Below are positions 15,300 through 32,060 of a stretch of DNA of 40,578 nt, piece after piece (positions within the stretch are counted from its first letter, which is position 1; each line of letters opens with the position of its first letter). The notes beneath the pieces were generated by a model. It had not been told where the DNA came from. It worked only from the letters and a program-made list of their open reading frames with translations, and did not search any database. Where the stretch lies: assembly GCA_022821965.1 (NCBI GenBank), contig JAJECN010000037.1, positions 209,656 through 250,233 of the forward strand, written 5' to 3'. The stretch is from Candidatus Poribacteria bacterium (lineage in GTDB: Bacteria; Poribacteria; WGA-4E; WGA-3G). A program made the position numbers and the translations under genes.

Positions 15300-15463
15300 G
15301 GTCTCTGTCAAGCAATGGGGCTACAAAGCACAGAAACTGCCTTATGCTCGGTAACATATCAATCTTTCCAAAACTTGAATTTTCATAATTCTTATGGTTA
15401 CTTAAAGCAAGGAAGGCAAAAACACCCTAAATCTAAAATATAAATTCAAAAGGAAATCTCACT

Positions 15464-17935: not shown

Positions 17936-18002
17936 CCCTAACACATTGAGAGCGTAACGGAAAGTGAAAGCGAAATACATTAGGGTAGAATGGAAAAAAA
18001 TA

Positions 18003-20399
18003 ATGTCTAACAAGGTAAATGAATTTGAGATTTTAAACGCGGACGACGCTGAATTGATGCGTATCAGTCGAGAGGGAACATTGTCGCTGAATCTGGACGA
18101 GATGAAGGCGATTCAGACGCATTTCGGAACGTTAGGACGCAACCCAACCGATGTAGAAATAGAGACCATCGCCCAAACGTGGTCTGAGCATTGCGTTCAC
18201 AAAACGTTTAAAAGCATCATCCTCTACTCTGAAGGGGAGGAAGAGCCGGAACAGATTGATGGTCTGTTTCCCACCTATATCCAACAGGCAACCGAAGAGA
18301 TCGCAAAACCGTGGTGTGTCTCCGTCTTCTCAGATAACGCTGGCATCATCGAATTCGATGAGACATTCAACCTCGTCTTCAAAGTAGAGACGCACAACCA
18401 CCCATCAGCGATTGAACCCTACGGTGGCGCAGGAACCGGTATTGGCGGCGTGATTCGTGACTCCCTCGGCACCGGACTGGGGGCAAAACCGATCCTGAAT
18501 ACAGATGTTTTCTGTTTTGGAATGCCGGATACGCCTTACGCGCAGCTGCCGAAAGGCACCCTTCACCCGAAACGTGTCTTTAAAGGGGTCGTCGCCGGTG
18601 TGCGCGACTACGGCAACCGGATGGGCATTCCGACAGCCAACGGTGCGATCCTCTTCGATACCCGCTATACCGCAAACCCACTTGTTTTCTGTGGAAATGT
18701 CGGTTTAATACCGAGAAACAGATGCGACAAATCCGTTGAACCTGGTGATCTCGTCGTCGCAATCGGTGGGCAAACAGGCCGCGACGGAATTCACGGTGCA
18801 ACCTTCTCCTCTGCAGAACTCGACGATACCTCTGAAAACCTCGGCAGCGTTGTTCAGATCGGCAATCCCATTATGGAAAAGAAGATTGTGGACGCTCTGC
18901 TACAAGCCCGCGATCACAACCTATATCGCTCAATAACGGATTGCGGTGCCGGAGGGTTCTCGTCTGCTGTGGGTGAGATGGGAGAACACGTAGGCGCGGA
19001 GGTGCATCTGGAACGTGTTTCCCTGAAATATGAAGGACTCGCGCCGTGGGAAATCTGGCTATCCGAAGCACAAGAACGTATGGTCATCGCTGTCCCCCCT
19101 GAAAATATAGATGAACTTATGGAGATATGCGAAGCGGAAGTCGTTGAAGCCACGGTTCTCGGAACTTTCACAGACACGCATCGGTTACAGGTTTTCTATG
19201 AAGGGGCAATAGTCGCCGATTTAGAGATGGAGTTTCTGCACAACGGTTTACCGAAGCCCATCAAACAGGCAGTTTGGACCCCACCACAGCATCCGGACAT
19301 GGCATCACGAGACAAAGAAACGCAAAATTACACTGAAGACCTTAAACAACTTCTCGCAAGTCCAAACATTGCAAGTAAGGAATCCGTCATCCGGCAATAC
19401 GACCACGGTGTCCAAGGCGGTGTAGTTATCAATCCGCTTGTCGGTGCAAAAAACGACGGACCCAGTGATGCCTGTGTCGTCACCCCTGTTATCGGAAGTC
19501 GGAAGGGCGTAATCGTAGCGAACGGTATCAACCCGAAATATAGCGACGTAGATCCGTATCTCAGTGCAGCGGCAGCGATTGACGAGGCATTGCGAAACAT
19601 AGTTGCTGTTGGCGGAACGTTAGAAAAGACAGCGTTGCTGGATAATTTCTGTTGGGGAAACCCGGACAAACCCGACCGACTTGGCGAGTTAGTCCGTGCG
19701 GCGAAAGCGTGCTATGACATCGCAACGGCTTATGGGACTCCCTTTATCTCTGGTAAAGACAGCCTCTACAACGAATACAGCGACACCACTACCGGTGAAC
19801 AACGCGCAATTCCATCGACACTGCTTATCTCCGCTATCTGCGTTATGCCTGACATTCAGCGCGCTGTCACAATGGATGTAAAAACGCCCGGTAATTTCAT
19901 CTATGTCGTCGGCAACACTTACGCCGAATTGGGAGGGTCGCACTACTTCGGTATTCACGGATTCATCGGAAACAAAGCACCTGCCATTCGTGCCGATGAA
20001 GGTAAATTAACGATGGAACGCCTCAGCAGTGCTATCAACACCGGATTGGTGCGTTCTTGCCATGACTGTTCCGAAGGTGGTATCGGTGTCGCAGCAGCGG
20101 AGATGGCATTCGCAGGCGGATACGGGATGTCTCTAAATCTCAATGACATTCCCACAGGCGATGAGATTACCGCTGACGACTACCTCCTGTTTTCCGAATC
20201 AAACAGCCGTTTCCTTGTAGAGATTGAACCACAACACCAACGGGCTTACGAAAATCACATGTCAAGTGTCCCAATAGGCTATCTCGGCACTGTCATAGAT
20301 ACGTCAGAATTCGTCATCAAAGGGACAGCAGGACACCTAATCGTTGAAACCTCAATTGATGTACTCAAATCCGCATGGCAAACACCATTGCATTCGTAA
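18003..20399 (+). CDS. purL: Phosphoribosylformylglycinamidine synthase subunit PurL
   Basis: A 798-residue ATP-dependent FGAM synthase subunit, the fourth step of purine synthesis. It has WSEHCVHK (60-67), ETHNHPSAIEPYGGAGTG, GGQTGRDGIHGATFSS, ITDCGAGGFSS, QYDHGVQGG, ISGKDSLYNEY and CHDCSEGG, the hallmarks of the small PurL type that works with PurQ and PurS. ATG 18003 is preferred; the frame is open from GTG 17964, but that extension is unlike the family. The upstream ribosome site is weak (GGAAAAAAATA). PurQ follows 40 bases downstream. No PurS is fused or adjacent. Confidence 0.95.
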   Translation: MSNKVNEFEILNADDAELMRISREGTLSLNLDEMKAIQTHFGTLGRNPTDVEIETIAQTWSEHCVHKTFKSIILYSEGEEEPEQIDGLFPTYIQQATEEIAKPWCVSVFSDNAGIIEFDETFNLVFKVETHNHPSAIEPYGGAGTGIGGVIRDSLGTGLGAKPILNTDVFCFGMPDTPYAQLPKGTLHPKRVFKGVVAGVRDYGNRMGIPTANGAILFDTRYTANPLVFCGNVGLIPRNRCDKSVEPGDLVVAIGGQTGRDGIHGATFSSAELDDTSENLGSVVQIGNPIMEKKIVDALLQARDHNLYRSITDCGAGGFSSAVGEMGEHVGAEVHLERVSLKYEGLAPWEIWLSEAQERMVIAVPPENIDELMEICEAEVVEATVLGTFTDTHRLQVFYEGAIVADLEMEFLHNGLPKPIKQAVWTPPQHPDMASRDKETQNYTEDLKQLLASPNIASKESVIRQYDHGVQGGVVINPLVGAKNDGPSDACVVTPVIGSRKGVIVANGINPKYSDVDPYLSAAAAIDEALRNIVAVGGTLEKTALLDNFCWGNPDKPDRLGELVRAAKACYDIATAYGTPFISGKDSLYNEYSDTTTGEQRAIPSTLLISAICVMPDIQRAVTMDVKTPGNFIYVVGNTYAELGGSHYFGIHGFIGNKAPAIRADEGKLTMERLSSAINTGLVRSCHDCSEGGIGVAAAEMAFAGGYGMSLNLNDIPTGDEITADDYLLFSESNSRFLVEIEPQHQRAYENHMSSVPIGYLGTVIDTSEFVIKGTAGHLIVETSIDVLKSAWQTPLHS

Positions 20400-20414: not shown

Positions 20415-20425
20415 TGTGTTATACT
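20415..20425 (+). promoter_or_regulatory. Extended -10 motif upstream of purQ
   Basis: TGTGT-TATACT fits the motif seen at other promoters in this window. There is no good -35, and the expected start point would leave only a few bases before the purQ ribosome site, so use is doubtful. Confidence 0.3.
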
Positions 20426-20439
20426 TACAAAGGATAAAA

Positions 20440-21225
20440 ATGACGCAACCTAAAGTACTCATCTTACGAACTGCGGGGACTAATTGCGATGCCGAAACAA
20501 ATAGGGCGTTCCAACTCGCTGGTGCGGGGACAGCATTAGTTCACATCCAAAATCTTATATCCGGCAAAGTCAACCTATCCGATTATCAGATCCTCGCTAT
20601 TCCGGGTGGTTTCTCTTACGGTGATGATATTGCAGCTGGTATTTTGCTGGCGATTGAGATGAGACATAAACTGACAAGTGCACTCAATCAATTTGTCGCA
20701 GATGGCAAACTGATCCTCGGTATATGTAATGGATTCCAAGTCCTCGTCCGGACAGGCTTGTTGCCCGGCAGTAATACCTCGGAAATGACGCAGCGCGCGA
20801 CACTCGCGATGAACACCTCAGCAAAATTCGAGTGTCGGTGGGTGGATTTGGAAACGCAGGAAAGTCCATGCGTCTTTACAAAAGGTATCAAAGCCCATGT
20901 TTATCTCCCTGTCGCGCATGCTGAAGGGCGGTTTACTGCCCCCGAAGATGTACTGTCAGAAGTAGAAACAAACAATCAAATTGTGTTTCGATATGCCGAA
21001 AGCAGATATCCGGACAATCCGAACGGCTCCGATGGCAATATTGCTGGCATCTGCGATACGACAGGCAGAATCTTCGGTTTGATGCCTCATCCAGAGCGGT
21101 TCCTGACGAAATGGAATCACCCGCGCTGGACCCGGCTTTCAGAAACACAAGACTCCGTTTCTGAAGAGGGGGACGGGCTGGTCATCTTCAAAAACGCTGT
21201 TAGTTACGTCAAAGCAAATCTTTGA
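20440..21225 (+). CDS. purQ: Phosphoribosylformylglycinamidine synthase glutaminase subunit PurQ
   Basis: A 261-residue class I glutamine amidotransferase that supplies ammonia to PurL. The nucleophile is C96 in LGICNGFQ; H217 and E219 in MPHPERF complete the triad. The oxyanion region PGGFSYGDD is intact. The ATG at 20440 lies behind AAAGGA. It is 40 bases downstream of purL and probably co-transcribed, which matches the universal coupling of these two subunits. Confidence 0.95.
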   Translation: MTQPKVLILRTAGTNCDAETNRAFQLAGAGTALVHIQNLISGKVNLSDYQILAIPGGFSYGDDIAAGILLAIEMRHKLTSALNQFVADGKLILGICNGFQVLVRTGLLPGSNTSEMTQRATLAMNTSAKFECRWVDLETQESPCVFTKGIKAHVYLPVAHAEGRFTAPEDVLSEVETNNQIVFRYAESRYPDNPNGSDGNIAGICDTTGRIFGLMPHPERFLTKWNHPRWTRLSETQDSVSEEGDGLVIFKNAVSYVKANL

Positions 21226-21280: not shown

Positions 21281-21715
21281 ATGCAGGATAAGTTAACACG
21301 TCGCCTCCTTCCATTCTATATGAAATTGCCTGTTTTTTGGGCGTTTATAGTGGTTTCAGTGCTGGGGCAGCTGCTCTGGGTGGTAGCCCTTTCCCACGAC
21401 GTGCGCATCGATCTCCGCTGGTCAAGTTTCGGCTACGGCTTAGGCATCGCTTTAGGATTTATGCAAGGGAAGTGGACATCCCGGTTATGGCAGCAGTCCT
21501 ATTTAAAGGTTTTGAAACGGCAGATAATCTTCTGGGAAGCGAAAGGTGCGAAACTTCTCACCTTTTATACCTGTTTTGCGCTCGGTTTACCGATTCTCTG
21601 CCCATTCCTCACCCGCTCACTTGATACATTAGCAGGTATCCAATCTTATGTCTTCGGTTTTATCGGCGCGATGAACGTAGCACTGCTGTTATGGGTGCGA
21701 CGGATGCCGAAGTAA
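21281..21715 (+). CDS. Small multi-pass membrane protein, unknown
   Basis: A 144-residue protein that I do not recognise. It has hydrophobic segments near 16-37 (LPVFWAFIVVSVLGQLLWVV), 93-111 (LLTFYTCFALGLPILCPFL) and 119-138, plus a weaker one near 48-61, separated by basic loops. The ATG lacks a clear Shine-Dalgarno, but a strong promoter lies just upstream, so it is probably real and transcribed separately from purQ. No catalytic motif is visible. Confidence 0.6.
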   Translation: MQDKLTRRLLPFYMKLPVFWAFIVVSVLGQLLWVVALSHDVRIDLRWSSFGYGLGIALGFMQGKWTSRLWQQSYLKVLKRQIIFWEAKGAKLLTFYTCFALGLPILCPFLTRSLDTLAGIQSYVFGFIGAMNVALLLWVRRMPK

Positions 21716-21719
21716 ATAT

Positions 21720-21805
21720 AGTTGTCGGTTATCAGTTATCAGTTGTCAGTAAGAGGATTCTGATACACGTCAAAACATACATTTAACTGAACACTGACAA
21801 CTATA
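21720..21805. repeat. Heptamer-repeat intergenic element (copy 4)
   Basis: AGTTGTCGGTTATCAGTTAT and further heptamers, then GTAAGAGG, a short middle part, and TTTAACTGAACACTGACAAC at the right end. It has the same build as the other family members. Confidence 0.65.
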
Positions 21806-21864
21806 GTAAAACCCGAAAATAAAAGGGCGCTTTAGAAAACACAAAACACCTCAAGGTTTCCGCT

Positions 21865-21885
21865 GGCGAGGTTTGTAACCTCGCC
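21865..21885. repeat. REP-like palindrome
   Basis: GGCGAGGTT-TGT-AACCTCGCC is a perfect 9-bp stem with a 3-base loop. No T-tract follows. Confidence 0.6.
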
Positions 21886-21936
21886 CTTCTACTGTACTGC
21901 CATCGGCAATTTAGACCACTCTCTAAACCAAGATTG

Positions 21937-21966
21937 TGGTATAATGACGATCTAAATGAAAGGAGA
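21937..21966 (+). promoter_or_regulatory. Extended -10 promoter and Shine-Dalgarno without a usual start codon
   Basis: TGTGG-TATAAT (the TATAAT at 21940-21945) is followed by AAAGGAG (from 21959). No ATG, GTG or TTG lies at the right distance. An open frame of 66 codons runs from ATT 21972 to the TAA at 22170-22172. Confidence 0.5.
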
Positions 21967-22105
21967 ATCCGATTTATCACATAGGTGTATCACCAGAAAC
22001 GCCCGTATTCGGCGTTAGGGTATCTAACACTTGTCGAATTTTAGCAACAAAACTTGTCTTAACTTTGCGAAATTGTGGTCTAAATAAGCGTATGCACTAC
22101 AAAAA

Positions 22106-22960
22106 TCAGTCTAAAACAATTGCTGCTGAGATAAATTTTCTGTCTGAAACTGTGCTATCAGTAACGCTGTAAATGAAAAGTTTAAAATCGTAAGTGTCAT
22201 CTCCCTGATATTGCGCAAGCTCTGCTGGCGGATACCGTTCATTGTTCACAAAAAATAACACTTTTTCATTGTTTGTAATGAGCGAGATAGTTTCGTAGTC
22301 ATCATCTTCATCAAAGAAAACTTGTGTATCTGCATCCACAGTCGCTCTGATTGAAACTATCTGTTCTAAATAAGTGGTGCCGCCCGCAGCGACATCCGCG
22401 ACAATCGCATCCATTGTTGTTGAAACAGATTCTGTCGACAAGTATGACCAAATATCGTATTCAGGGCTAAAAGGTTCTGGTGGGTCCACATCCACAATAA
22501 AAACCTTGAATGTATAAGATTGTCCTTTTTCGTAGCCTTGTAATTTTTCGGGAGCGTTACGACTTAGCACGAAAAACCAGACATCATCGTTATTTGTTTG
22601 CAGTGTTATAGTATCATTTCTGCGAAAATTAGATGTATCTTCCTCAACTGAAGCGGTTACAGAAACAGTTTTCCCGACATAGGTTCTACTGCCTGCGGCA
22701 ACATCGGCAACAACGTCCGCGAACGTAACGGTTGATGTAGGTTCAGGTTCAACAGAGGTTGGCATCGTCCCCGCAAGTGTCGCAAAGATAACAGAATCGT
22801 CAATATCGACTTCGCTAAACGCCTGTCCGTCCTCCAGTTCGGAGCGAGGGAAAATCTCTCCGACAGCGCAGAAATTCGTTGTGCAGACAGGGTTTTCAGC
22901 ATTGCAACCGAGTTTGAAAACAACAGCAATTACAAGTAGTAAAAAAGGAAATCGTTTCAT
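22106..22960 (-). CDS. Lipoprotein with two tandem beta-rich repeats
   Basis: A 284-residue protein with a lipoprotein signal (lipobox FKLGC, C19). After a linker it carries two related domains of about 100 residues. Each begins with DVVADVAAG or DAIVADVAAG, then TYVGKTVSVTASVEEDT or TYLEQIVSIRATVDADT, and ends in a strand around FKVFIVDV or FKLFIYSV. I infer a duplicated OB-like or other beta fold; function is unknown. A minus-strand extended -10 (TGT-TATACT, 22997-22989) lies upstream, and AGGGGCACT precedes the ATG. It is the first gene of the accessory island. Confidence 0.8.
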   Translation of the reverse strand: MKRFPFLLLVIAVVFKLGCNAENPVCTTNFCAVGEIFPRSELEDGQAFSEVDIDDSVIFATLAGTMPTSVEPEPTSTVTFADVVADVAAGSRTYVGKTVSVTASVEEDTSNFRRNDTITLQTNNDDVWFFVLSRNAPEKLQGYEKGQSYTFKVFIVDVDPPEPFSPEYDIWSYLSTESVSTTMDAIVADVAAGGTTYLEQIVSIRATVDADTQVFFDEDDDYETISLITNNEKVLFFVNNERYPPAELAQYQGDDTYDFKLFIYSVTDSTVSDRKFISAAIVLD

Positions 22961-22988
22961 AAGTGCCCCTAAAAATTATTTTTCAGAG

Positions 22989-22997
22989 AGTATAACA
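22989..22997 (-). promoter_or_regulatory. Extended -10 promoter for the lipoprotein gene
   Basis: Read on minus, TGT-TATACT lies about 30 bases before the start codon. No convincing -35 is seen. Confidence 0.45.
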
Positions 22998-23248
22998 GAA
23001 ATCGAAAAGTTTTAGGATAGTTTTCGCGGTCATGGTGTCTTGTGCTGACACACTCAAAACACAGTACACATCCGCTTTCGCTCTTTTCAGATCTACCATA
23101 GGAGCATCTTTTCGAGGAGGCTTGTAGGGCGTTCCAGTAAGGTTTTTTGATTAACTTTTGGTACGCTACTGACTTTAGGGACGAAATCGCAAATGTGGGC
23201 GGTTTAGGCTTGTCTGAAATGTTGGCACCTGGTACGATGTCTTAAAAC

Positions 23249-23276
23249 AATGTTAGCGCGTGAACGTGCTAACGTT
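23249..23276. promoter_or_regulatory. Hairpin just upstream of a start codon
   Basis: AATGTTAGCGCG and CGTGCTAACGTT pair over 12 positions (two G-T pairs) around the loop TGAA. It ends 23 bases before the ATG at 23300, so it would lie in the mRNA leader. The remaining 300 or so bases between the lipoprotein gene and this point show no gene. Confidence 0.45.
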
Positions 23277-23299
23277 GCAAGTCAAAAAAGGAGTGTATT

Positions 23300-23976
23300 A
23301 TGATCTCAAGAAATTTCAACGTATTTACTTTGAAGCAGTTTATAGTTTTGCTTGTGGTTCTATATGTCGGGTTATGCGTTTTTAATTATACCAACGCCCA
23401 AAAAAGTGAGGAACATCTAATACAAGCGATTCATTAGAGGAAAATCTTGACTTATTTGACATAGATTCAACTCCCAAGAATTACCTGAAAAATGGTGATT
23501 TCTATTCACAAGAAAAGCTTCGTAGATTAGTCATAGACACAAGTTTTATTGATAAGGTAGACACTGCTCTGTGGTGGTATAACAAAGTAATCAACGAATA
23601 CCCCGGAACTCAAGAAGCCAATGAGGCTTTAAGGGCTAAGATAAGAACGATCATAGGCTGGACAGAAGGATATGGGAAGGATAAAAAATCTTTTGGACTG
23701 CATGATCGTGGGCTGGGTAGCAAATACTTTCCAATTATTGAAAGCACATTTAAGAAATTAGAAGCCGGGTATCCAGATGATAAGTATCTGGAAGCTTTTG
23801 CCTTCCAGATAGCACAGCGATACTTTATTTATGTCTTGGGATACCGTCAGTACAAATACAAAGAGAATTGCCTACATTGGTTTGAGAAAACCATTGAACT
23901 TGCAAAAGGCAAAGATACTTTTTATAGCCATCTTGCGAGAAGACGTATTAAGTCGGTTGAAGGGATAAAAAATTAG
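23300..23976 (+). pseudogene. Frameshifted exported helical-repeat protein
   Basis: ATG 23300 follows AAAAAAGGAG and encodes a signal peptide (FIVLLVVLYVGLCVFNYTNA), but this frame stops at 23435-23437. From 23410 to the TAG at 23974 another frame is open for about 187 codons, with no start codon of its own. It is rich in Tyr, Trp and charged helices (DTALWWYNKVINEYPGTQE, then FKKLEAGYPDDKYLEAFAFQ), like TPR-type tetratricopeptide proteins. One lost base between 23410 and 23435 would join both parts into about 225 residues. It may be a real mutation or a sequencing error. Confidence 0.7.
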
Positions 23977-24024
23977 CATACCGTTATTGAGGGTCTTGTA
24001 GGCGATCCTCGTAAGGATTTTCTT

Positions 24025-24441
24025 ATGAAAAGAATTGTGCTATTGATACTTTTGTTGTTTAGTTTTTCAATGTTCTCTTTCGCAGATAACGCTCGATTAG
24101 ATGCGCGGAGAGATGCTAAGCGAGAGGTCAACGATACTGTATGGGCTTTAGCGGGGTTTTCGGCTCCATTACTGATTGGTGGCTTGTATATGTCTGGTGG
24201 TACGACAGGCAGTACGATCACATATAGTGTGTTTGCTCCTGGTGTGGTGGTTGGAGCGAGTCAGTATTATCCGATTTCGGCTCAATCTGACCGATTTTTA
24301 GGCAAATCACCGGCGTATGTCTCGGCGTATGTAAACGCTTATGAATCCGAAGTCAAGAATCTTCGGCGGCGGTCTCTACTTTGGGGCTTCGGCGCGGGCG
24401 TTGGCTTGTTGATTGTTTTAAATACGATGGACATTCTATGA
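24025..24441 (+). CDS. Small exported/membrane protein, unknown
   Basis: A 138-residue protein with an N-terminal signal (MKRIVLLILLLFSFSMFSFA), two hydrophobic stretches (about 44-57 and 117-135) and a basic segment KNLRRRSLLWGFGAG between them. I do not recognise the family. AAGGATTTTCTT precedes the ATG. The leader GTAGGCGATCCTCGTAAGG resembles GTAGGGCGTTCCAGTAAGG at 23127, so the two leaders may be related. Confidence 0.6.
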   Translation: MKRIVLLILLLFSFSMFSFADNARLDARRDAKREVNDTVWALAGFSAPLLIGGLYMSGGTTGSTITYSVFAPGVVVGASQYYPISAQSDRFLGKSPAYVSAYVNAYESEVKNLRRRSLLWGFGAGVGLLIVLNTMDIL

Positions 24442-24561
24442 TCGGTTTGAAAAAGTTTTTCTTCAAATCACGCCTTGCTCTGTAAGCCTTACGATAAGTT
24501 CTGCTTGTGTCCCGTCTTGTGCTTGTGGAACAATTCCGTATAGATTTTGATTCAAAAGTGC

Positions 24562-25143
24562 CTACATCCTTGAGGGTAAATTAGGATCTGCAAAATTGAG
24601 ATGAAAATCTTCACAATGTTTCTTCCCTTTTGAATCTTCCCAAGTCCCTGTAATCGTAACCTGAAATTTATTTAGATCACTGGGGGGAAATCCAGGAAGA
24701 TTGTTATCTGATCTTAGTTCCTCCGCCGGAAGAAGGCGGTCAACACCATCCTCAAGAAAATAAACGCGCTTCAGTAGCGGTTCCTTTGTTTTATCCGGCA
24801 TAGGATTAAAAGAACGATGCCCTTCAAACTTAACATTACGGGCAACTCCTGGACCTATATTTTTTGCAATGAGGATCAGTATACGGTGTTTCCGCTTTTC
24901 CGCGCCGTCTTCATAGACGTGTGCTTTGCCAGTAGGTAATAGACGAACGATAACTTCAGGCTTGTAGGAGTTTTCTAACATCTCCTGTGTCAGTTGGACG
25001 TTTTCTTGCGTTAGTTGGACGTAAGTTTTCATTAGGCGTACGTACCGCCAAGTGATATATGCAAGAAGAGCGGTGGCGAGTGCTGTGATTATGCCGTTGT
25101 TTTCATTCAGAAATTTGATTGTAGAGTCTAACCATAATGGCAA
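24562..25143 (-). CDS. Single-pass membrane protein, unknown
   Basis: A 193-residue protein with one N-terminal helix (about 17-35, IITALATALLAYITWRYV), then a possible short coiled coil (YVQLTQENVQLTQEMLENS), then a soluble domain with beta strands (PEVIVRLLP, HRILILIAKNIG, VTITGTWEDSKG). The start is TTG 25143, nine bases after AAAGGAG. Downstream of the TAG stop the same frame stays open for about 29 codons, ending at 24473. The family is not recognised; it resembles small membrane proteins of accessory regions. Confidence 0.6.
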   Translation of the reverse strand: MPLWLDSTIKFLNENNGIITALATALLAYITWRYVRLMKTYVQLTQENVQLTQEMLENSYKPEVIVRLLPTGKAHVYEDGAEKRKHRILILIAKNIGPGVARNVKFEGHRSFNPMPDKTKEPLLKRVYFLEDGVDRLLPAEELRSDNNLPGFPPSDLNKFQVTITGTWEDSKGKKHCEDFHLNFADPNLPSRM

Positions 25144-25310
25144 TGTGGAAATCTCCTTTAGGCTACCGTCTCGTCAGTCTCTTAAACCAGTTCCGTTTTT
25201 CTCCGGTGCCGGAGGCAACATGAGAGCCTCGTTCTGTTTCTGGAGTCGGTGGTATGCCCAGTTGAACTTGTGGGGTTATCCGATCTTTACGATCTCGGCA
25301 GTTTCGGTGT

Positions 25311-25484
25311 TTATTCGTTTGAATTTTGATCCAGCCAAGATTTGAAAATCTTTATTTTCTTTTTTATCTTCAGAAATTTAAAGATCGTTCTCAACACAGT
25401 TCTTGTGAGGCGGAAAACCACAAGTATTAAGGCTATACATGCAATCAGAAAAAACAGATAAATTATGATAATCTCCATAAGCAT
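25311..25484 (-). CDS. Small 57-residue membrane protein
   Basis: A short frame beginning with ATG 25484 (or ATG 25478) after ACAGG. It encodes a strong N-terminal helix (IIIIYLFFLIACIALILVVF) and then a lysine-rich tail (FKFLKIKKKIKIFKSW). The start overlaps the end of an upstream frame that reads TAEIVKTG-stop. It could encode a real small membrane protein. Confidence 0.4.
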   Translation of the reverse strand: MLMEIIIIYLFFLIACIALILVVFRLTRTVLRTIFKFLKIKKKIKIFKSWLDQNSNE

Positions 25485-25542
25485 CAACCTGTCTTTACGA
25501 TTTCCGCAGTCGTCTCCCCTACGCGGCTGATAAGTCTTTCGT

Positions 25543-25890
25543 CTAACCTGAACCGGTAAGGAAGTAGGTCAGTACAGCCCCAATCCCACCAGCAACAAAA
25601 TAACCGAGCCATTGAAACACACTTTCTAAAAGTTGCTGTTCACGAATAAATTGTTCACATTCCTCCTTGCTTCCCCGACAGACGAGAATGCAAGTTTGGT
25701 CAAGTTGCGTGTTTCCCATTGTTTTTATATCAAAGCTCGACATAGTTGCGTCTAAATAGGCATAAGCATAATGAACGTATTCATCCATTATCTCGTCAAA
25801 TAGACCAGGTTCAAGAACTTCTTTTATGGCAAAATGTGTTATATGCTTCATACTTACCCAAGCATCATCATCTAAAGACTTTATCCACAT
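25543..25890 (-). CDS. Hypothetical protein with C-terminal membrane helix
   Basis: A 115-residue product from ATG 25890, which follows AAAGGTAAGG; the frame continues upstream to 25974 but overlaps the recombinase fragment there. It begins MWIKSLDDDAWVSMKH and ends with a helix (about 93-112, VFQWLGYFVAGGIGAVLTYF). The acidic soluble part has a CILVCRGSKEECEQF segment. I do not recognise the family. It lies in a run of small minus-strand genes and remnants. Confidence 0.5.
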   Translation of the reverse strand: MWIKSLDDDAWVSMKHITHFAIKEVLEPGLFDEIMDEYVHYAYAYLDATMSSFDIKTMGNTQLDQTCILVCRGSKEECEQFIREQQLLESVFQWLGYFVAGGIGAVLTYFLTGSG

Positions 25891-25906
25891 AAATTCTGCC
25901 TTACCT

Positions 25907-26209
25907 TTATTTCTCAGCCGAACTTGACAATCTCCGCAGTCGCTCGGTATCCTCTCGGAGTTTAGAGAGGTCATACCCGCGGAGTGCGATCTCCAAAAAG
26001 AGTGTTTCGCCAGCGGTTTGTTTGAGTTCTCTACCTAAAAATCGGAATGAACTCGACAAAAGATACCTTAGACTGAGCAACTCACTGATACGTCCCCCAG
26101 TACTCACATCGAGCATGAGAAACCCGCGATTGCGGACTTCAAACGTGCCGGCGAAACATCCCGATATCCGGCGGATCTCGTCGTTGTCAAACGGGCGTGT
26201 GCCTTTCAT
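25907..26209 (-). pseudogene. Tyrosine recombinase N-terminal fragment
   Basis: A 100-residue frame starting MKGTRPFDNDEIRRIS. It reaches FLMLDVSTGGRISELLSLR, the first conserved box of phage-type integrases with the catalytic Arg in GRISELL. After that the sequence departs from the family and ends without the HxxR or the Tyr. It is therefore a truncated or chimeric recombinase. The first 35 bases are nearly repeated at 27224-27258. Its start overlaps the end of the HNH gene by 23 bases. Confidence 0.7.
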
Positions 26210-27137
26210 TGTGTTTCCCCGACAAGACAAGAGGTTGGAATACTGCGTGTAACTTTACAAGTCTATCGTGTAGCCATGGAAACTCTTGATCTGTGTCAGC
26301 TTTGTTCACATCTCCCATAGTATCATCAAGGAATCCAATCCGCTTTTTAGAATCCTCCCATTTTAACTCGCCAAGGGTGTCCTCAAATTGTCCCTTAATA
26401 GTATCTTTGTGTTCTTTCAAGCGGTTGTAATGTGTGAAAGATTGCATACAGAGGGTGGCTTGTAGTGTCTTACGATCTCTATATGCTATAAGCCAAAAGG
26501 CACCGCCTTTATATCTGTCCGCAGATTTACGGGTTTTTCGATCAATCTGGATACCGTAAATCGAAGGTAAATCGGGTTCAGGGAAAAACCGTAACTGATT
26601 CCCATTTTCTGTTACGTAAGTTTTGAATTTATCCCAATACTCTTTTCCTCTGGTTCCCCAATACTTTACTCTCCTGGTATTATTTCCCCTATTAGCATCT
26701 TCCAATCGAGAAACGCCTGTATGGCAATCATTACATAAACCTGACAAGTCCGTTAGGATATCCTCATTACCAATATTATCATAAGTCCTGTGATGCACTT
26801 GCGTAGCCTGTTCACCGCAAATACATAGCCGCCCCACCTGTGCAAAGAATCTCTGACGGGTTTCAGACCATGCTTGTGAGTGAAGATAATTGTTGTAATC
26901 ATTCGGTGGATTCTCGGTAAGAATCGCATGCCATATTTCGCTTCTGAGATTGCGGGCTTCTTGAAAATCAGGGTACAGGTTCAGTGCTTCATCAAGTAAA
27001 TCAATGGCACAGTATCCAGTGTGTATTCGTTCAAATTCATTTACACGACTTTCTCTAAAAATTGGAAATTCCGTGCCATTCCAGCAGTATTGGAACGCTA
27101 AAACAAAATTATGTCTCGCTTGAGTTATACTATCCAT
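26187..27137 (-). CDS. HNH nuclease with DUF4268 C-terminal domain
   Basis: A 316-residue protein. A helical N-terminal part is followed by an HNH zinc-type nuclease motif (C105-x-C107, H115-H116, C135-x2-C138-H139; CICGEQATQVHHRTY then LCNDCH). Residues about 185-303 match DUF4268, with FWLIAYRDRKTLQATLCMQS, RIGFLDD and a C-terminal WLHDRLVKLHAVFQPL. DUF4268 occurs with restriction and defence genes; the combined activity is unknown. AAAGGAG lies 14 bases before ATG 27137. The gene is bracketed by direct repeats of a recombinase 5' end, and its last residues come from reading the downstream copy in another frame. Confidence 0.8.
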   Translation of the reverse strand: MDSITQARHNFVLAFQYCWNGTEFPIFRESRVNEFERIHTGYCAIDLLDEALNLYPDFQEARNLRSEIWHAILTENPPNDYNNYLHSQAWSETRQRFFAQVGRLCICGEQATQVHHRTYDNIGNEDILTDLSGLCNDCHTGVSRLEDANRGNNTRRVKYWGTRGKEYWDKFKTYVTENGNQLRFFPEPDLPSIYGIQIDRKTRKSADRYKGGAFWLIAYRDRKTLQATLCMQSFTHYNRLKEHKDTIKGQFEDTLGELKWEDSKKRIGFLDDTMGDVNKADTDQEFPWLHDRLVKLHAVFQPLVLSGKHNERHTPV

Positions 27138-27156
27138 CGCCTGTACCGTTGCTCCT

Positions 27157-27258
27157 TTATTTTTCAACGGCTTCTACGCCGTCCATTGTGATTTGCCATT
27201 CAAAACGCTCCACAACGAGCTGTATCTCGTCGTTGTCTAAAGGGCGGGTGCCTTTCAT
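27157..27258 (-). pseudogene. 33-residue tyrosine recombinase start remnant
   Basis: It encodes MKGTRPLDNDEIQLVVERFE and 13 more residues, then TAA. The first 12 residues equal the start of the recombinase fragment at 26209 apart from one. It lies directly upstream of the HNH gene, whose Shine-Dalgarno overlaps its stop codon. The 35-bp DNA match (27224-27258 to 26175-26209) has three differences. Confidence 0.6.
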
Positions 27259-27269
27259 TGTAGAATACC

Positions 27270-27662
27270 TTACAATGCTTGGGGTATTGAAAGCGGTCGG
27301 ATATTGATGCCATGATTTCTTAAATACTGGCAGATGTGTTCAAGTTGGGGGGTAAAGAAGGGAACAACAATAAAAAGTCGTAAGTTTTCAGAATGACCGG
27401 TATGAGGATATTCGGCGGCATAGTGGATGAGTTGCCCGACGGATTTATGAATTGCGTCATGTCTGCGCGTAGAATCATCATCCAAGTTCGTTTGGACTTC
27501 AACAATAACCGTTCTGCCCTGTGCATCGGTTTCCATCAGATCGGGGGCTAACGCGTCCCAAGTGCCTTTTATGGCACCTGAATTTAAATAGATTTCTTCT
27601 CCGAAAACAGTAAGCGTGTTTTCCCTGATATAATCTACCATTTTGTCATGTGTTATATTCAT
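27270..27662 (-). CDS. PD-(D/E)XK-like nuclease-fold protein
   Basis: A 130-residue protein with an APDLMETDAQGRTVIVEVQT segment, in which D41, E55 and Q57 fit a PD-(D/E)XK core whose Lys is replaced by Gln. HKSVGQLIHYAAEYPH follows, like the helix after the core in NucS or restriction-like nucleases. This is fold-level recognition only; activity is uncertain because of the Gln. ATG 27662 follows AAAGGGAT. A minus-strand extended -10 (TGG-TACAAT, 27763-27755) lies about 95 bases upstream. Confidence 0.65.
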   Translation of the reverse strand: MNITHDKMVDYIRENTLTVFGEEIYLNSGAIKGTWDALAPDLMETDAQGRTVIVEVQTNLDDDSTRRHDAIHKSVGQLIHYAAEYPHTGHSENLRLFIVVPFFTPQLEHICQYLRNHGINIRPLSIPQAL

Positions 27663-27754
27663 CAAAAAAATCCCTTTGGATTACCAGTCCCAGTCCATTT
27701 ATCCCCCAACTACGGTAGGAGGGTGGCAGAAAAAGATGTAGGATCCGTTTCGTA

Positions 27755-27763
27755 ATTGTACCA
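27755..27763 (-). promoter_or_regulatory. Extended -10 promoter
   Basis: TGG-TACAAT on the minus strand, about 93 bases before the start of the nuclease-fold gene. No -35 is obvious. Confidence 0.4.
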
Positions 27764-27828
27764 TCCAAACTGGCAATAAGAGTATACTACATTTAGGAGA
27801 GGAATGCAAGGCTATTTCCTACCAAAGG

Positions 27829-27960
27829 CAGGGTCATTCAATTGTCAATTTTTCGATCAAATTTTCACCCCCCAGGCCCGGTAGGTTCGGTTTCCTAACC
27901 GAACCGGATCCTTGAAAAAAGACGTGAAACCCAATAATTTCTTAAAATTGAATGCCCCTG
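27829..27960. mobile_element. Second MITE-like element with the same ends
   Basis: The left end CAGGGTCATTCAATTGT (27829-27845) and the complement of the right end CAGGGGCATTCAATTTT (27944-27960) match each other and the ends of the element at 8747-8868. Inside is a strong hairpin GGTTCGGTT-TCCT-AACCGAACC. A target duplication is not visible. The right end abuts the promoter of the antitoxin gene. The 352-bp gap between genes holds this element, a promoter on each strand and nothing else. Confidence 0.65.
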
Positions 27961-27968
27961 ATTTAAAT

Positions 27969-27997
27969 TTGACGTGCCGTGCAAATTGTGGTATTCT
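27969..27997 (+). promoter_or_regulatory. Promoter TTGACG-N17-TATTCT
   Basis: TTGACG (27969-27974) and TATTCT (27992-27997) are 17 bases apart, with TGTGG before the -10. It lies 17 bases before the antitoxin ATG, so the leader is very short. Confidence 0.65.
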
Positions 27998-28014
27998 TAA
28001 ATAAGGAGACGATT

Positions 28015-28284
28015 ATGTCCTATAAAGAATGCTTAATTTTTATAGCGTATGTCAAATATCTCAGAACTTCAAGCGTGCTACGCGGCACTGAAGACAAGCA
28101 AGTAAACACTTCAGCGGTTCCATCGGCTGCTACAGATATGACCAGTAAACCGCATCGCACGCCACCACCTCCACGCCTCCGAAAACCCAAATTTACGCTT
28201 GAAGAACTTTTAACTCAGATGCCAGACGATGGTGGACAAGGTGAAGTAGACACGGGACCATCAGTAGGCAACGAAGTATGGTAG
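28015..28284 (+). CDS. MazE-like antitoxin (C-terminal toxin-binding part)
   Basis: An 89-residue protein ending in KFTLEELLTQMPDD followed by GEVDTGPSVGNEVW, the typical MazE C-terminal segment that binds MazF. The N-terminus, MSYKECLIFIAYVKYL, does not look like the usual AbrB/SpoVT DNA-binding domain, so the gene is either chimeric or an atypical antitoxin. AAGGAGACG precedes the ATG. It overlaps the MazF stub by 7 bases, the usual arrangement of this module. Confidence 0.75.
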   Translation: MSYKECLIFIAYVKYLRTSSVLRGTEDKQVNTSAVPSAATDMTSKPHRTPPPPRLRKPKFTLEELLTQMPDDGGQGEVDTGPSVGNEVW

Positions 28285-28349
28285 ATTCAACAGGGTACGT
28301 TCCAGTACCCGGCGATGTTGTTTGGATTAACTTCAACCCGCAAACATGA
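28278..28349 (+). pseudogene. Truncated MazF/PemK toxin start
   Basis: It encodes MVDSTGYVPVPGDVVWINFN and PQT, then TGA, matching the first strand of MazF (VPxxGDVVWLNFxPQ) and nothing else. The other 85 or more residues are missing; the helicase gene begins in the stop codon (ATGA). The stub shows loss of the toxin next to its antitoxin. Confidence 0.75.
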
Positions 28350-30067
28350 ACCTTGATAGAAACCAAGAAAAAGCCGCTAACCACGTTACGGGACCCGCAA
28401 TCGTCATCGCAGGACCGGGCAGTGGCAAAACAACAGTCGTAACGGCACGAATCCTAAACCTCATCCAAACCCACAACATTCCGCCCTCACAGATCCTCGC
28501 CATTGCCTTCAATAGAAAAGCTGTCGAAGAGATGGAAACACGCATCAGACACGGACTCACTCCTGACAACACCAAAACGTCCCAAAGACCCGTAATTCGC
28601 ACACTCCACGCCTTTGGTAAAGACATCATCACCGAAAACTATAAACGCGCTGGATTCAACCAAATCCCCGAAATTTGGTCAGGACAGATTGATCAAATCA
28701 TCGCAGACGAGCAGAAACAGATTGAACGCGAAGCCTCTACTACCACGGTTGCCATTTACAAAATAGAGAGCAAAAAGACTGGCAAATGCTATATCGGTCA
28801 GACGACAAATCCAGACCGACGCAAAAAAGAACACTTCGACCACTCATCAAACGATAGACTCCGACAAGCAATCCGATCAGAAGGAGAAACACAATTCCGT
28901 TTTGAGGTGCTTGAAAGAGTTCCGGGACGAGAGGCGAACCGTCGCGAAGCACACTGGATTGCGTTCTATAGAGACCAAGCCGGTGTGTTCAACCGTGCCG
29001 ATCCTTTGCGGATGCGGTACAGCAACCAAATCATTCTTGAAATGTTCTGCCAGCATTTTGGCATCATTTATGAGGAACATCTTGACAGGCATCCAGACTT
29101 CGAGAATCTTCGCGAACGTTTCAACGGCATAGAAGAGATCGTTATGCGTGCGAAACGGCAGGTTACCACAGGTGTGTTCGACCCAACCACGCTTGACGAC
29201 GCTGTGGCAAAGGCATTTGCCGTAAAATATGAGACACTCAAAACTGAAGCAAATGCCATTGATTTCGAGGATATGATTATCCACGCAGCGAACCTACTTG
29301 AAACCTGCCCGGATCTTCGCCAAACCTACCGCGACAAATACCCCTATTTGCTTGTTGACGAATTCCAAGACATCTCTCCTGCCGACTTTCGACTGATTTC
29401 GCTCTTATCAGAAAATCTTTTCGCTGTCGGTGATGATGATCAAGCAATCTACAGTTTTCGTGGTGGCAACTCCGAGATTATGCAGGCATTTACCGAGCAG
29501 CGGGATGTGAAAAAGTATGAAATAACGCGCAATTACCGTTCTACGTCAACGATTGTTGAACACGCACGGGCTTTGATTGAGCGAAACGAGCCGCGAATCC
29601 GTAAAAATCTCCGCGCCCATAACCCGATGCAGCAGCGCATAAAAATCGTAGAGACAACCCCAAAAACCGTAGAAACCACCTTATTACGCGAGTTGGAATC
29701 CCCGAAAGAAATCGCCATTTTAGCACGGACCAACGATGAAATTGAGCGGATTCAGGAGATGCTTATCAACCTTCCCACCTCACCTGAAGTAACGACGATC
29801 CACAAAGCGAAGGGCAGAGAATGGGAAAAGGTCATCCTCGTCCACAATACATTGGAGCGTCGCTTTCCGCGTCGTGATAGTATACTTACAGAGGAGCGGC
29901 GTGTCTTCTATGTTGCAATGACGCGTGCCAAAGTAGAACTCGTTGTGCTTGGTGGGCAGTGTCCATTCGTGCCGGAGTTTGAGGAAATCCGTAAAAATAT
30001 CGGTTACTATCTCCGGCAGTTTGGATATTGGCGAGCGAGAAGGAGAATAAAAAACAAGAAGATATAA
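28346..30067 (+). CDS. UvrD/Rep-type helicase with embedded GIY-YIG nuclease domain
   Basis: A 573-residue superfamily 1 helicase: Q motif near 3-13, Walker A AGPGSGKTT (22-30), Ia IAFNRKAVEEME, TLHAFG, Walker B LLVDEFQD (335-342), VGDDDQAIYSFRGG, NYRST, TTIHKAKGREW and EERRVFYVAMTRAK. Between motif Ia and Walker B (about 134-219) lies a GIY-YIG domain: VAIYKIESKKTGKCYIGQTT, R158/R159 and REAHW with E201. Domain 2B is shortened, making it smaller than UvrD (about 720). The insertion couples strand unwinding to cutting. The start overlaps the MazF stub stop (ATGA), suggesting translational coupling; no Shine-Dalgarno is seen. Its location suggests a defence or repair role, which is inference. 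Confidence 0.88.
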   Translation: MNLDRNQEKAANHVTGPAIVIAGPGSGKTTVVTARILNLIQTHNIPPSQILAIAFNRKAVEEMETRIRHGLTPDNTKTSQRPVIRTLHAFGKDIITENYKRAGFNQIPEIWSGQIDQIIADEQKQIEREASTTTVAIYKIESKKTGKCYIGQTTNPDRRKKEHFDHSSNDRLRQAIRSEGETQFRFEVLERVPGREANRREAHWIAFYRDQAGVFNRADPLRMRYSNQIILEMFCQHFGIIYEEHLDRHPDFENLRERFNGIEEIVMRAKRQVTTGVFDPTTLDDAVAKAFAVKYETLKTEANAIDFEDMIIHAANLLETCPDLRQTYRDKYPYLLVDEFQDISPADFRLISLLSENLFAVGDDDQAIYSFRGGNSEIMQAFTEQRDVKKYEITRNYRSTSTIVEHARALIERNEPRIRKNLRAHNPMQQRIKIVETTPKTVETTLLRELESPKEIAILARTNDEIERIQEMLINLPTSPEVTTIHKAKGREWEKVILVHNTLERRFPRRDSILTEERRVFYVAMTRAKVELVVLGGQCPFVPEFEEIRKNIGYYLRQFGYWRARRRIKNKKI

Positions 30068-30134: not shown

Positions 30135-32060
30135 ATGGTAACCGCAACTTTGAAAAAGCAAAACTTCCATCCCGGCGTAACCTTTCGTGCCATTATACTC
30201 GGTTTGCTACTGATTCCGGTGAATACCTACTTTATCATGGCAAATCACCTCAAGTTTTGGAGCACCCTCCCGACTACGATGTCACTCATCTATAACGTGA
30301 TTATCACGTTGATGGTGCTTATCCCTTTTAATCTTCTGTTGAATCGGTTTCTGCCGCGGTTCGCGCTTAGACAGGGTGAATTGCTGACGGTTTTCGTGAT
30401 GCTGTCGCTCTCCTCCGCGATCGCGGGACATGATATGATGCAGACGGTTATCCCGACGATATCCGATGGATACTGGTTCGCAACCCCTGAAAACGAATGG
30501 AAACAACTCTTCTGGCGATACCTCCCGCCATGGCTCACATCCAACGATGAAGCAAGTCTACAGGCATTCTATGACGGGGAGAGCACTATCTACACAAAAG
30601 TGCACCTTCTCGGTTGGCTACGACCTATTCTCTGGTGGACAATTTTTCTGACTGTTCTTATCTGGGTGATGATTTGTATAGATGTTTTCCTCCGACGACA
30701 GTGGATCGAGCGGGAACGGTTGACGTATCCTATTGTGCAATTGCCGTTGGAAATGACGAGGCTTGATGGACGACTTTTCAAGTCAAAGATGATGTGGCTG
30801 GGATTTGCGATCGCAGGGGGTATCAATCTTGTCAACGGCTTTCACGTCCTTTTCCCAGAGATTCCAGAAATCCCAGTACGGCACGCCGAAATCGGGCAAT
30901 ACTTCACCCAAAAACCGTGGAGATCAATGGGCTGGACACCGGTTTATGTCCGCTCGTTCGCCGTCGGACTCGCTTTCCTCATGCCGTTGGAGATGTCGTT
31001 TTCAATCTGGTTCTTCTACTGGTTCTGGAAAGCACAACGGATATTGGGCAGTGCCCTCGGACTCGATGTGATGCCGGGGTTCCCATACGACTGGCAACAG
31101 GTGATGGGAGGTTATCTCGTGCTCGCCTGCTTTGCGCTGTGGGGTGGACGACGCTATTTTTTTGCGGTCTTCAAGTACGTCTTCCGAATCCGCAAGTCGC
31201 CGGGCACCATCGACGACAGCACGGAACCGATGCGCTATCGCTGGGCAGCGATTGGACTCGTTTGTGGCTTGTTTTTCTTATTCGCCTTTTCACGACAAGG
31301 TGGGATGGAATTCTGGACAATTGGACTCTATTTTTTAATCTATTACCTGTTAGCAATGAGTTTGACGCGTATCCGTGCCGAGGTTGGACCACCGACAATT
31401 CGGACGTATGCAACGCCGCACGATATCCTCACCGATATTTTCGGTACCCGATTGATTTCGCGCGGCAGTTTAACAATGATGCGTCTCTATCTAACCTTCA
31501 ATCGAGGCTCGCGTGCCCACCCGATGCCCCATACGCTTGAAGGATTCAAACTTGCCGAAGAAACAGGCATGCACTCCGGCAGACTCATTGTCGCGATGAT
31601 GTTCGCAGCGGTGATTGGTATCCTCGCATCGTTTTGGGCATACTTTGTTGTTAGCTACGACATCGGTGTTGTCAGCGACCTTGGCACCGGAGGCTATAAC
31701 CTACTACAAAGTTGGCTCCAGCACCCGGCTGACACTGATGTTCCTGCCGTGATTTTTATAGGTGTCGGTGCGCTCTTGACCGGCTTCTTTTGGTGGCTAC
31801 GAACCTTATTCCCGTTCTGGCCCCTTCACCCTGCTGGCTACATGGTCGCTGGTGAAAAATCGACGATCGGTAGGTTATGGTTTTCGATATTCATCAGTTG
31901 GGGCATCAAAACAATTCTACTAAAAGTGGGCGGGATTCGCCTCTATCGCAAAGCATATCCACTTTTTTTAGGACTGATTCTCGGTGAATTCATGGTAGGT
32001 GGTGTATGGGTACTGATTCGACTCTTTACTGGGATACAGATGTATTCATTTTACAGGTAA
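30135..32060 (+). CDS. Multi-pass membrane protein, DUF6785/DUF6784-like
   Basis: A 641-residue, highly hydrophobic protein with roughly a dozen predicted helices. The first is AIILGLLLIPVNTYFIMANH; others include IYNVIITLMVLIPFNLLL and ILWWTIFLTVLIWVMICIDV. Soluble loops carry ERERLTYPIVQLPLEM and RIRAEVGPPTIRTY, the pattern of the DUF6785/DUF6784 family common in planctomycete-type genomes, which resembles oligopeptide-type transporters. Function is unknown. No Shine-Dalgarno is visible; the ATG is the first possible start. It precedes an oxidoreductase and a lactonase, so a transport role in sugar-acid use is possible. Confidence 0.7.
   Translation: MVTATLKKQNFHPGVTFRAIILGLLLIPVNTYFIMANHLKFWSTLPTTMSLIYNVIITLMVLIPFNLLLNRFLPRFALRQGELLTVFVMLSLSSAIAGHDMMQTVIPTISDGYWFATPENEWKQLFWRYLPPWLTSNDEASLQAFYDGESTIYTKVHLLGWLRPILWWTIFLTVLIWVMICIDVFLRRQWIERERLTYPIVQLPLEMTRLDGRLFKSKMMWLGFAIAGGINLVNGFHVLFPEIPEIPVRHAEIGQYFTQKPWRSMGWTPVYVRSFAVGLAFLMPLEMSFSIWFFYWFWKAQRILGSALGLDVMPGFPYDWQQVMGGYLVLACFALWGGRRYFFAVFKYVFRIRKSPGTIDDSTEPMRYRWAAIGLVCGLFFLFAFSRQGGMEFWTIGLYFLIYYLLAMSLTRIRAEVGPPTIRTYATPHDILTDIFGTRLISRGSLTMMRLYLTFNRGSRAHPMPHTLEGFKLAEETGMHSGRLIVAMMFAAVIGILASFWAYFVVSYDIGVVSDLGTGGYNLLQSWLQHPADTDVPAVIFIGVGALLTGFFWWLRTLFPFWPLHPAGYMVAGEKSTIGRLWFSIFISWGIKTILLKVGGIRLYRKAYPLFLGLILGEFMVGGVWVLIRLFTGIQMYSFYR

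Follow-up and report, generated by a model that had tools for sequence, protein, structure and literature searches.

The gene at the centre of this analysis, here called HEL, lies in a stretch of 40,578 nucleotides (the window) from the genome of a member of the Poribacteria, which are sponge-associated bacteria. HEL is an uninterrupted open reading frame of 573 codons with an ATG start, preceded by purL, purQ and a gene for a small membrane protein for which no Pfam family was matched, and followed by a gene for a DUF6785/DUF6784 membrane protein (Table 1). Beside purL, window positions 12780-17935 encode two large WD40 beta-propeller proteins of 839 and 823 aa in adjacent genes. In the HEL protein, Pfam assigned residues 4-385 to UvrD-helicase (1.7e-60) and residues 481-534 to UvrD_C (7.5e-20), and a GIY-YIG match at residues 137-209 (E 1.2e-9; 38.8 bits against a cut-off of 22.6) is nested within the N-terminal UvrD match. 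The nuclease insertion follows the motif Ia-Ic block (H88 in TLHAFGK) and precedes motif II, in which D338, E339 and D342 are invariant in our alignment even in distant UvrDs. An earlier description made from the DNA alone (the sequence-only reading) had reported a full set of SF1 helicase motifs with a GIY-YIG domain placed within domain 1B, and had suggested a Pfam search, which indeed detected both the UvrD and the GIY-YIG domains. Motifs I to VI and the N- and C-terminal UvrD domains are all present, and the nested Pfam match together with the flanking 1B helices of the structure model confirms the placement of the nuclease.

Table 1. HEL, its functional elements and its neighbours in the window, with the evidence for each
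Feature	Position	Strand	Basis
purL, upstream neighbour	17964-20399		Synteny
purQ (GATase_5), conserved upstream neighbour	20416..21225	+	Pfam, synteny
Small conserved membrane protein between purQ and HEL	21281..21715	+	Synteny in relatives
HEL, GIY-YIG/UvrD helicase-nuclease gene, 573 aa	28346..30067	+	ORF list, Pfam, orthologues
Walker A / motif I, GPGSGKT, residues 23-29	28412..28432	+	Sequence; columns invariant (alignment)
1B helix, residues ~114-132, runs into first nuclease strand	28685..28741	+	AlphaFold2 model
GIY-YIG nuclease domain nested in subdomain 1B, residues 134-217	28745..28996	+	PF01541, fold, I-TevI profile match
Catalytic Arg R159, aligned with I-TevI R27	28820..28822	+	Invariance in 38 orthologues; 1mk0/1ln0 alignment
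Catalytic metal-binding Glu E201, aligned with I-TevI E75	28946..28948	+	Invariance in 38 orthologues; 1mk0/1ln0 alignment
Walker B / motif II, DEFQD, residues 338-342	29357..29371	+	Sequence
Motif IV-to-V junction, residues 461-484, 24 aa, site of missing 2B	29726..29797	+	Alignment
Domain 2A motifs V and VI, residues 481-534	29786..29947	+	Pfam UvrD_C
DUF6785/DUF6784 membrane protein, usual downstream neighbour in genus	30135..32060	+	Pfam, synteny

For the structure of HEL we used the better of two AlphaFold2 runs, which was based on a 40-row alignment and yielded a mean pLDDT of 87.6 and a pTM of 0.81; the run with a shallow alignment gave a pLDDT of 72 for domain 2A. In the model used, residues 134-209 form the succession beta(134-142)-beta(148-153)-alpha-alpha-beta(184-193)-alpha(194-209) with pLDDT values of about 85-96, which is the order of elements of the GIY-YIG fold, and the nuclease domain is flanked by the 1B helices 114-132 and 227-238. 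The fold is thus present where the sequence-only reading had expected it, and structure prediction was a test by which that reading itself had proposed to stand or fall. It is near certain that HEL is a helicase with a GIY-YIG domain inside 1B. The insert had been delimited as residues 134-219, of which the start is correct, but the domain stops near residue 217, with the conserved N216. Similarly, R158 and R159 had both been considered for the catalytic arginine; R159 is invariant in 38 HEL orthologues, as are Y138, C148, Y149, G151, H163, E201, N216 and many nearby residues, whereas R158 reaches 89% only.

The nuclease domain comprises 84 residues in every aligned HEL orthologue. When a profile of this part was compared with the PDB, I-TevI (1mk0, 1ln0; E about 1e-4) was the sole convincing relative, and no UvrC structures were among the matches. 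The two I-TevI entries differ at precisely two columns, both catalytic (E75 and R27), which are aligned with E201 and R159 of HEL. Profile comparison also linked the domain to the PHROG homing endonucleases phrog_314, phrog_7168 and phrog_5123. HEL possesses the GIY..YIG strands, the central Arg, the C-terminal Glu and the Asn that characterize the GIY-YIG superfamily, and metal-dependent endonuclease activity is predicted. In the alignment, the nuclease zone contains zero residues in a PcrA-like (L003) and a RecB-like protein (L002) and in two further UvrD fusion proteins (L072, L073). The sequence-only reading envisaged the cutter beside the DNA-entry face, and the location of 1B in UvrD/PcrA makes this position plausible.

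The 1A/1B/2A fold of the motor is supported by the same model and by Foldseek, in which the whole HEL model matched UvrD/PcrA/Rep DNA complexes, the best being Deinococcus UvrD-DNA complexes (E down to 3.8e-28). Scores against the NCBIfam equivalog models were 211.2 for pcrA (cut-off 911.2), 196.5 for rep (951.5) and 171.6 for uvrD (1144.5); judged by its sequence, HEL is a UvrD-type SF1A helicase and no equivalog of PcrA, Rep or UvrD. The motif IV-to-V junction of 24 aa corresponds, in one and the same alignment, to 167-211 aa in 2B-bearing UvrD relatives. According to this alignment, subdomain 2B is gone from HEL, which the sequence-only reading had overlooked. The 1B region comprises 210 aa, 84 of them nuclease, compared with 105 aa in the PcrA-like L003 (741 aa) from the same genome. 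Subdomain 2B is autoinhibitory, and its deletion activates Rep monomers (2026 review, PMC13238157); because HEL is devoid of 2B, it is predicted, by analogy, to be a constitutively active monomer. Since its genome also encodes a 741-aa protein of PcrA/UvrD size and a 618-aa GIY-YIG ORF of UvrC size, HEL is an extra.

Other 2B-less motors were encountered in different contexts. On a viral contig (L104:3-11351 (+)), an open frame of 3783 aa combines trypsin-like, amidoligase and 2B-less UvrD domains; this giant phage protein is the closest viral relative of the HEL motor among the matches listed. Two proteins from the same Poribacteria genus as HEL (L072:2782-6234 (-) and L073:5651-9724 (+)) combine a 2B-less UvrD with a RuvC domain and TPR repeats, in L072 additionally with an FGE-sulfatase domain, and represent, going by their domain content, a second helicase-nuclease-type fusion. 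They share the 2B-less motor with HEL, but GIY-YIG is absent from them and their RuvC domain follows the motor; the helicase tree places them with PcrA and not with HEL.

Using HEL residues 95-262 as query, we found orthologues with the same insertion in 54 of the 59 genomes of the Poribacteria family to which the window belongs, in four genera and in several chromosome-level assemblies. Homologues of this kind, which the sequence-only reading had proposed to look for, are thus abundant, and the possibility of an assembly chimera was rejected. An intein or intron origin of the insert was rejected as well, HEL being a single continuous ORF in which Pfam detected no extra modules. The search of 26 further genomes from the phylum yielded no HEL-type fusion, only short GIY-YIG matches in unrelated ORFs, and the architecture was not found in samples of about 300 genomes of other phyla and 398 genomes of another phylum (about nine candidates scored per genome in each). 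Neither the 80 best viral UvrD relatives nor the 80 best viral GIY-YIG relatives included such a fusion. Viral UvrDs and homing-type GIY-YIG genes do exist, and two viral contigs carry a short UvrD and a GIY-YIG as separate genes, but they were never fused, and a viral source already having the HEL architecture was therefore rejected. A GIY-YIG domain inside 1B of a UvrD-type helicase was not found in the open literature searched either, where the only related cases were Tlr8p, an SF1 helicase with the domain at its C-terminus, and one HsdR with an inserted copy. Within what was searched, the internal GIY-YIG in a UvrD-type helicase is indeed unusual.

The HEL orthologues occupy one site, in the order purL, purQ, membrane protein and HEL; the DUF6785 gene comes next in most genus-1 loci, and in L030, L032 and L033, which are more distant loci, only about 55-60 bp separate the membrane protein gene from HEL. 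No repair gene was detected as a conserved neighbour in the loci examined. Near-universal presence and a fixed site beside purQ are typical of a vertically inherited core gene, a family-wide status that had escaped the sequence-only reading, as had the tandem paralogues with a doubled GIY-YIG domain described below. HEL can be lost, because the chromosome-level genome G021 has kept purQ and the membrane protein without it. Other families of the order possess purQ, and mostly also the membrane-protein gene, with no adjoining HEL. The simplest history is a single gain of HEL in the stem of the Poribacteria family: a phage-type GIY-YIG domain would have been inserted into a 2B-less UvrD once, in the family ancestor, and the gene would later have been duplicated and elaborated.

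For the nuclease domain, the median of the pairwise dN/dS values is 0.098; the motor blocks of HEL have 0.05-0.11, and the 38-residue 1B stretch directly before the insert reaches 0.21. Purifying selection acts on the nuclease domain. The GC content of the insert (0.476) does not differ from that of the gene or the window (0.473). A recent foreign insert was rejected on these grounds, as the GC content equals that of the window and the insert is old, family-wide and under purifying selection.

In at least 12 genomes a second, longer gene is present, mostly directly downstream of HEL, several of these genes being cut by contig ends. The complete tandem paralogues comprise 809-1698 aa and combine a HEL-type helicase with GIY-YIG, to which several add a GrpE-like domain and three to four S1 domains. 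A single GIY-YIG is found in L010 and L022, while most others have two in series; the double arrangement was detected by HMM in seven ORFs, two of which are the same gene, and further second copies were revealed by profile search. The catalytic Arg is retained in the first copy but usually missing from the second, in which the His and the Glu are often lost as well. This decay of the extra copy next to a retained first copy argues that the conserved copy is used. Paralogues with GrpE-like and/or repeated S1 RNA-binding domains are located at L284:1111-6204 (-), L070:6543-10430 (-), L067:6430-10170 (-) and L068:6893-10837 (-); several of them also have a second GIY-YIG, and this odd mix of domains suggests no obvious function.

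HEL is preceded by a swap zone. In the window, 6.6 kb (21716-28345) lie between the membrane protein gene and HEL, a stretch that is missing in syntenic relatives (gaps of 9-1602 bp) and holds unknown ORFs, one of them HNH-like (26187-27167 (-)) with a weak DUF4268 and PDC-S11 match. Directly upstream of HEL (27979-28349), a remnant of a mazE-mazF toxin-antitoxin system retains the C-terminus of a MazE-like protein and 23 aa of the MazF N-terminus (MVDSTGYVPVPGDVVWINFNPQT*), and the stop of this MazF fragment overlaps the HEL start codon; intact mazF is found at the same place in L015 and L017. Of the 27 loci examined, 12 have a gene pair that ends about 95 bp upstream of HEL and encodes an RHH-type protein of about 172-184 aa together with an HNH nuclease of about 136 aa, the HNH being incomplete in one locus (L008:6971-7907; also L010, L014, L016, L018, L019, L021, L022, L024 and L027; partial in L035). 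An N6/N4 DNA methylase fused to an Mrr-like restriction domain is encoded between HEL and a double-GIY paralogue (L030:9743-11515 (+)), and in L031 an AAA_15 ATPase gene lies downstream near HEL, with NsnB and PDC-M55A as best PADLOC matches and only a weak match to GajA. The flanking genes are compatible with a core gene surrounded by a defence hotspot, or with HEL itself being weakly linked to defence.

With the UvrD/PcrA/Rep SF1A helicases (PF00580 plus PF13361) HEL has every motor motif in common, but it is devoid of their 2B and contains an 84-aa nuclease inside 1B. Likewise, the Tyr, Arg, His, Glu and Asn of the catalytic core of I-TevI and other GIY-YIG homing endonucleases (PF01541) match HEL; those enzymes, however, are associated with introns or inteins or are free-standing, and are mobile and patchily distributed, whereas HEL is a continuous host ORF at a fixed site and vertically inherited, in which Pfam detected neither NUMODs nor other modules for DNA recognition. 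RecB, AddA and AdnAB unite a UvrD-type motor with a nuclease in one polypeptide; their nuclease is a C-terminal PD-(D/E)XK domain of the RecB family, partner subunits are needed and 2B is present. Pfam found no C-terminal PD-(D/E)XK domain in HEL, which ends shortly after motif VI. In the eukaryotic Tetrahymena Tlr elements, the SF1 helicase Tlr8p bears GIY-YIG at its C-terminus, and a single case of GIY-YIG inserted into a Type I restriction subunit is described for Methylococcus HsdR (PMC1564403). With a terminal nuclease in Tlr8p and an insert in a Type I subunit in HsdR, neither resembles HEL in having the domain in 1B of a UvrD-type helicase.

The single HEL chain, as seen in sequence and structure prediction, contains complete motor and nuclease active sites that are conserved together, and 2B is absent. 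One HEL protein probably both unwinds and nicks DNA. The motor would translocate 3'-to-5' on single-stranded DNA and might unwind the duplex as a monomer, because removal of 2B frees Rep-type monomers. The I-TevI-type nuclease, which has no DNA-binding modules of its own, would receive its substrate from the motor and nick it near the single-/double-strand junction handled by 1B; since recognition modules are lacking, cutting would be guided by the motor and not by sequence. Family-wide, fixed-site and vertical inheritance suggests a role in DNA maintenance, and HEL may act on the chromosome by processing forks, flaps or recombination intermediates, working like the RecB/AddA and Hef/XPF helicase-nuclease machines but built independently. 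With a probability of about one half, we thus regard HEL as a genome-maintenance enzyme, passed on vertically, whose helicase unwinds and whose nuclease nicks DNA junctions. More tentatively, HEL could stand for a lineage-specific class in which 2B was dispensed with and a homing-endonuclease core in 1B turned the helicase into a motor-guided nickase, and whose paralogues doubled the nuclease into an active-plus-decayed pair and added GrpE and S1 domains.

The main rival to genome maintenance is defence. By analogy with GajB and the translocases of Type I/III restriction, HEL might be an anti-phage or restriction enzyme whose motor translocates on invading DNA, which is then cut by the GIY-YIG domain. 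GajB of Gabija is a UvrD-type helicase like HEL and its best PADLOC match (218 bits), but the score for PcrA is nearly equal (211 bits), so that these values do not discriminate and the match reflects the UvrD motor alone. GajB also differs from HEL in having neither the GIY-YIG insertion nor the spread of a core gene, and GajA (AAA plus TOPRIM) was not seen by Pfam or PADLOC among the window neighbours tested. The swap zone with its RHH and HNH pairs, mazEF, methylase-Mrr and AAA_15 genes would suit a defence function, as would paralogues that diverge and gain domains. Yet these accessory genes vary between genomes, and HEL is found at a fixed chromosomal site in nearly all genomes of the family, whereas defence genes are usually patchy. 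Overall, we consider a defence role unlikely, if the most serious of the alternatives.

The nuclease domain might also serve as a wedge that binds the DNA junction in place of 2B, with cutting unimportant or tightly switched off. An additional DNA-binding module in 1B could substitute for the absent 2B, and paralogues retain second GIY-YIG copies without the Arg; all catalytic residues of HEL, however, are invariant, beyond those required for the fold, which makes a mere wedge rather improbable. Very improbable is a passive insertion, in which a mobile homing-type GIY-YIG landed in the helicase and has no function, as suggested for Methylococcus HsdR. GIY-YIG domains are mobile, the HsdR insertion is apparently recent and possibly non-functional (PMC1564403), and phage homing endonucleases are the nearest relatives of the HEL nuclease, but a functionless insert is at odds with catalytic residues that do not vary among 38 orthologues from across the family, a dN/dS of about 0.10, a constant length in aligned orthologues and the contrast in the paralogues between a decaying second copy and a first copy that keeps its Arg. 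Just as little speaks for a repair shortcut joining UvrC-like incision and UvrD-like oligonucleotide displacement for excision repair: both late activities of that pathway would reside in one HEL chain, but the nuclease matches I-TevI and homing endonucleases and not UvrC among the PDB entries, the genome has its separate UvrC-size GIY-YIG ORF, and Pfam did not find a UvrB-binding domain in HEL.

As a helicase-nuclease of probable dual activity, HEL would provide a compact natural model for the coupling of unwinding to cutting, and as a natural 2B-less relative of UvrD it would allow testing the idea that 2B is a mere regulatory brake. The paralogues, in which active and decayed nuclease copies are adjacent, offer a direct test of the use of the second copy. 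In this family of Poribacteria, a UvrD-type motor and a probable phage-type nickase have become one protein by internal fusion, and almost every genome has retained the resulting gene.
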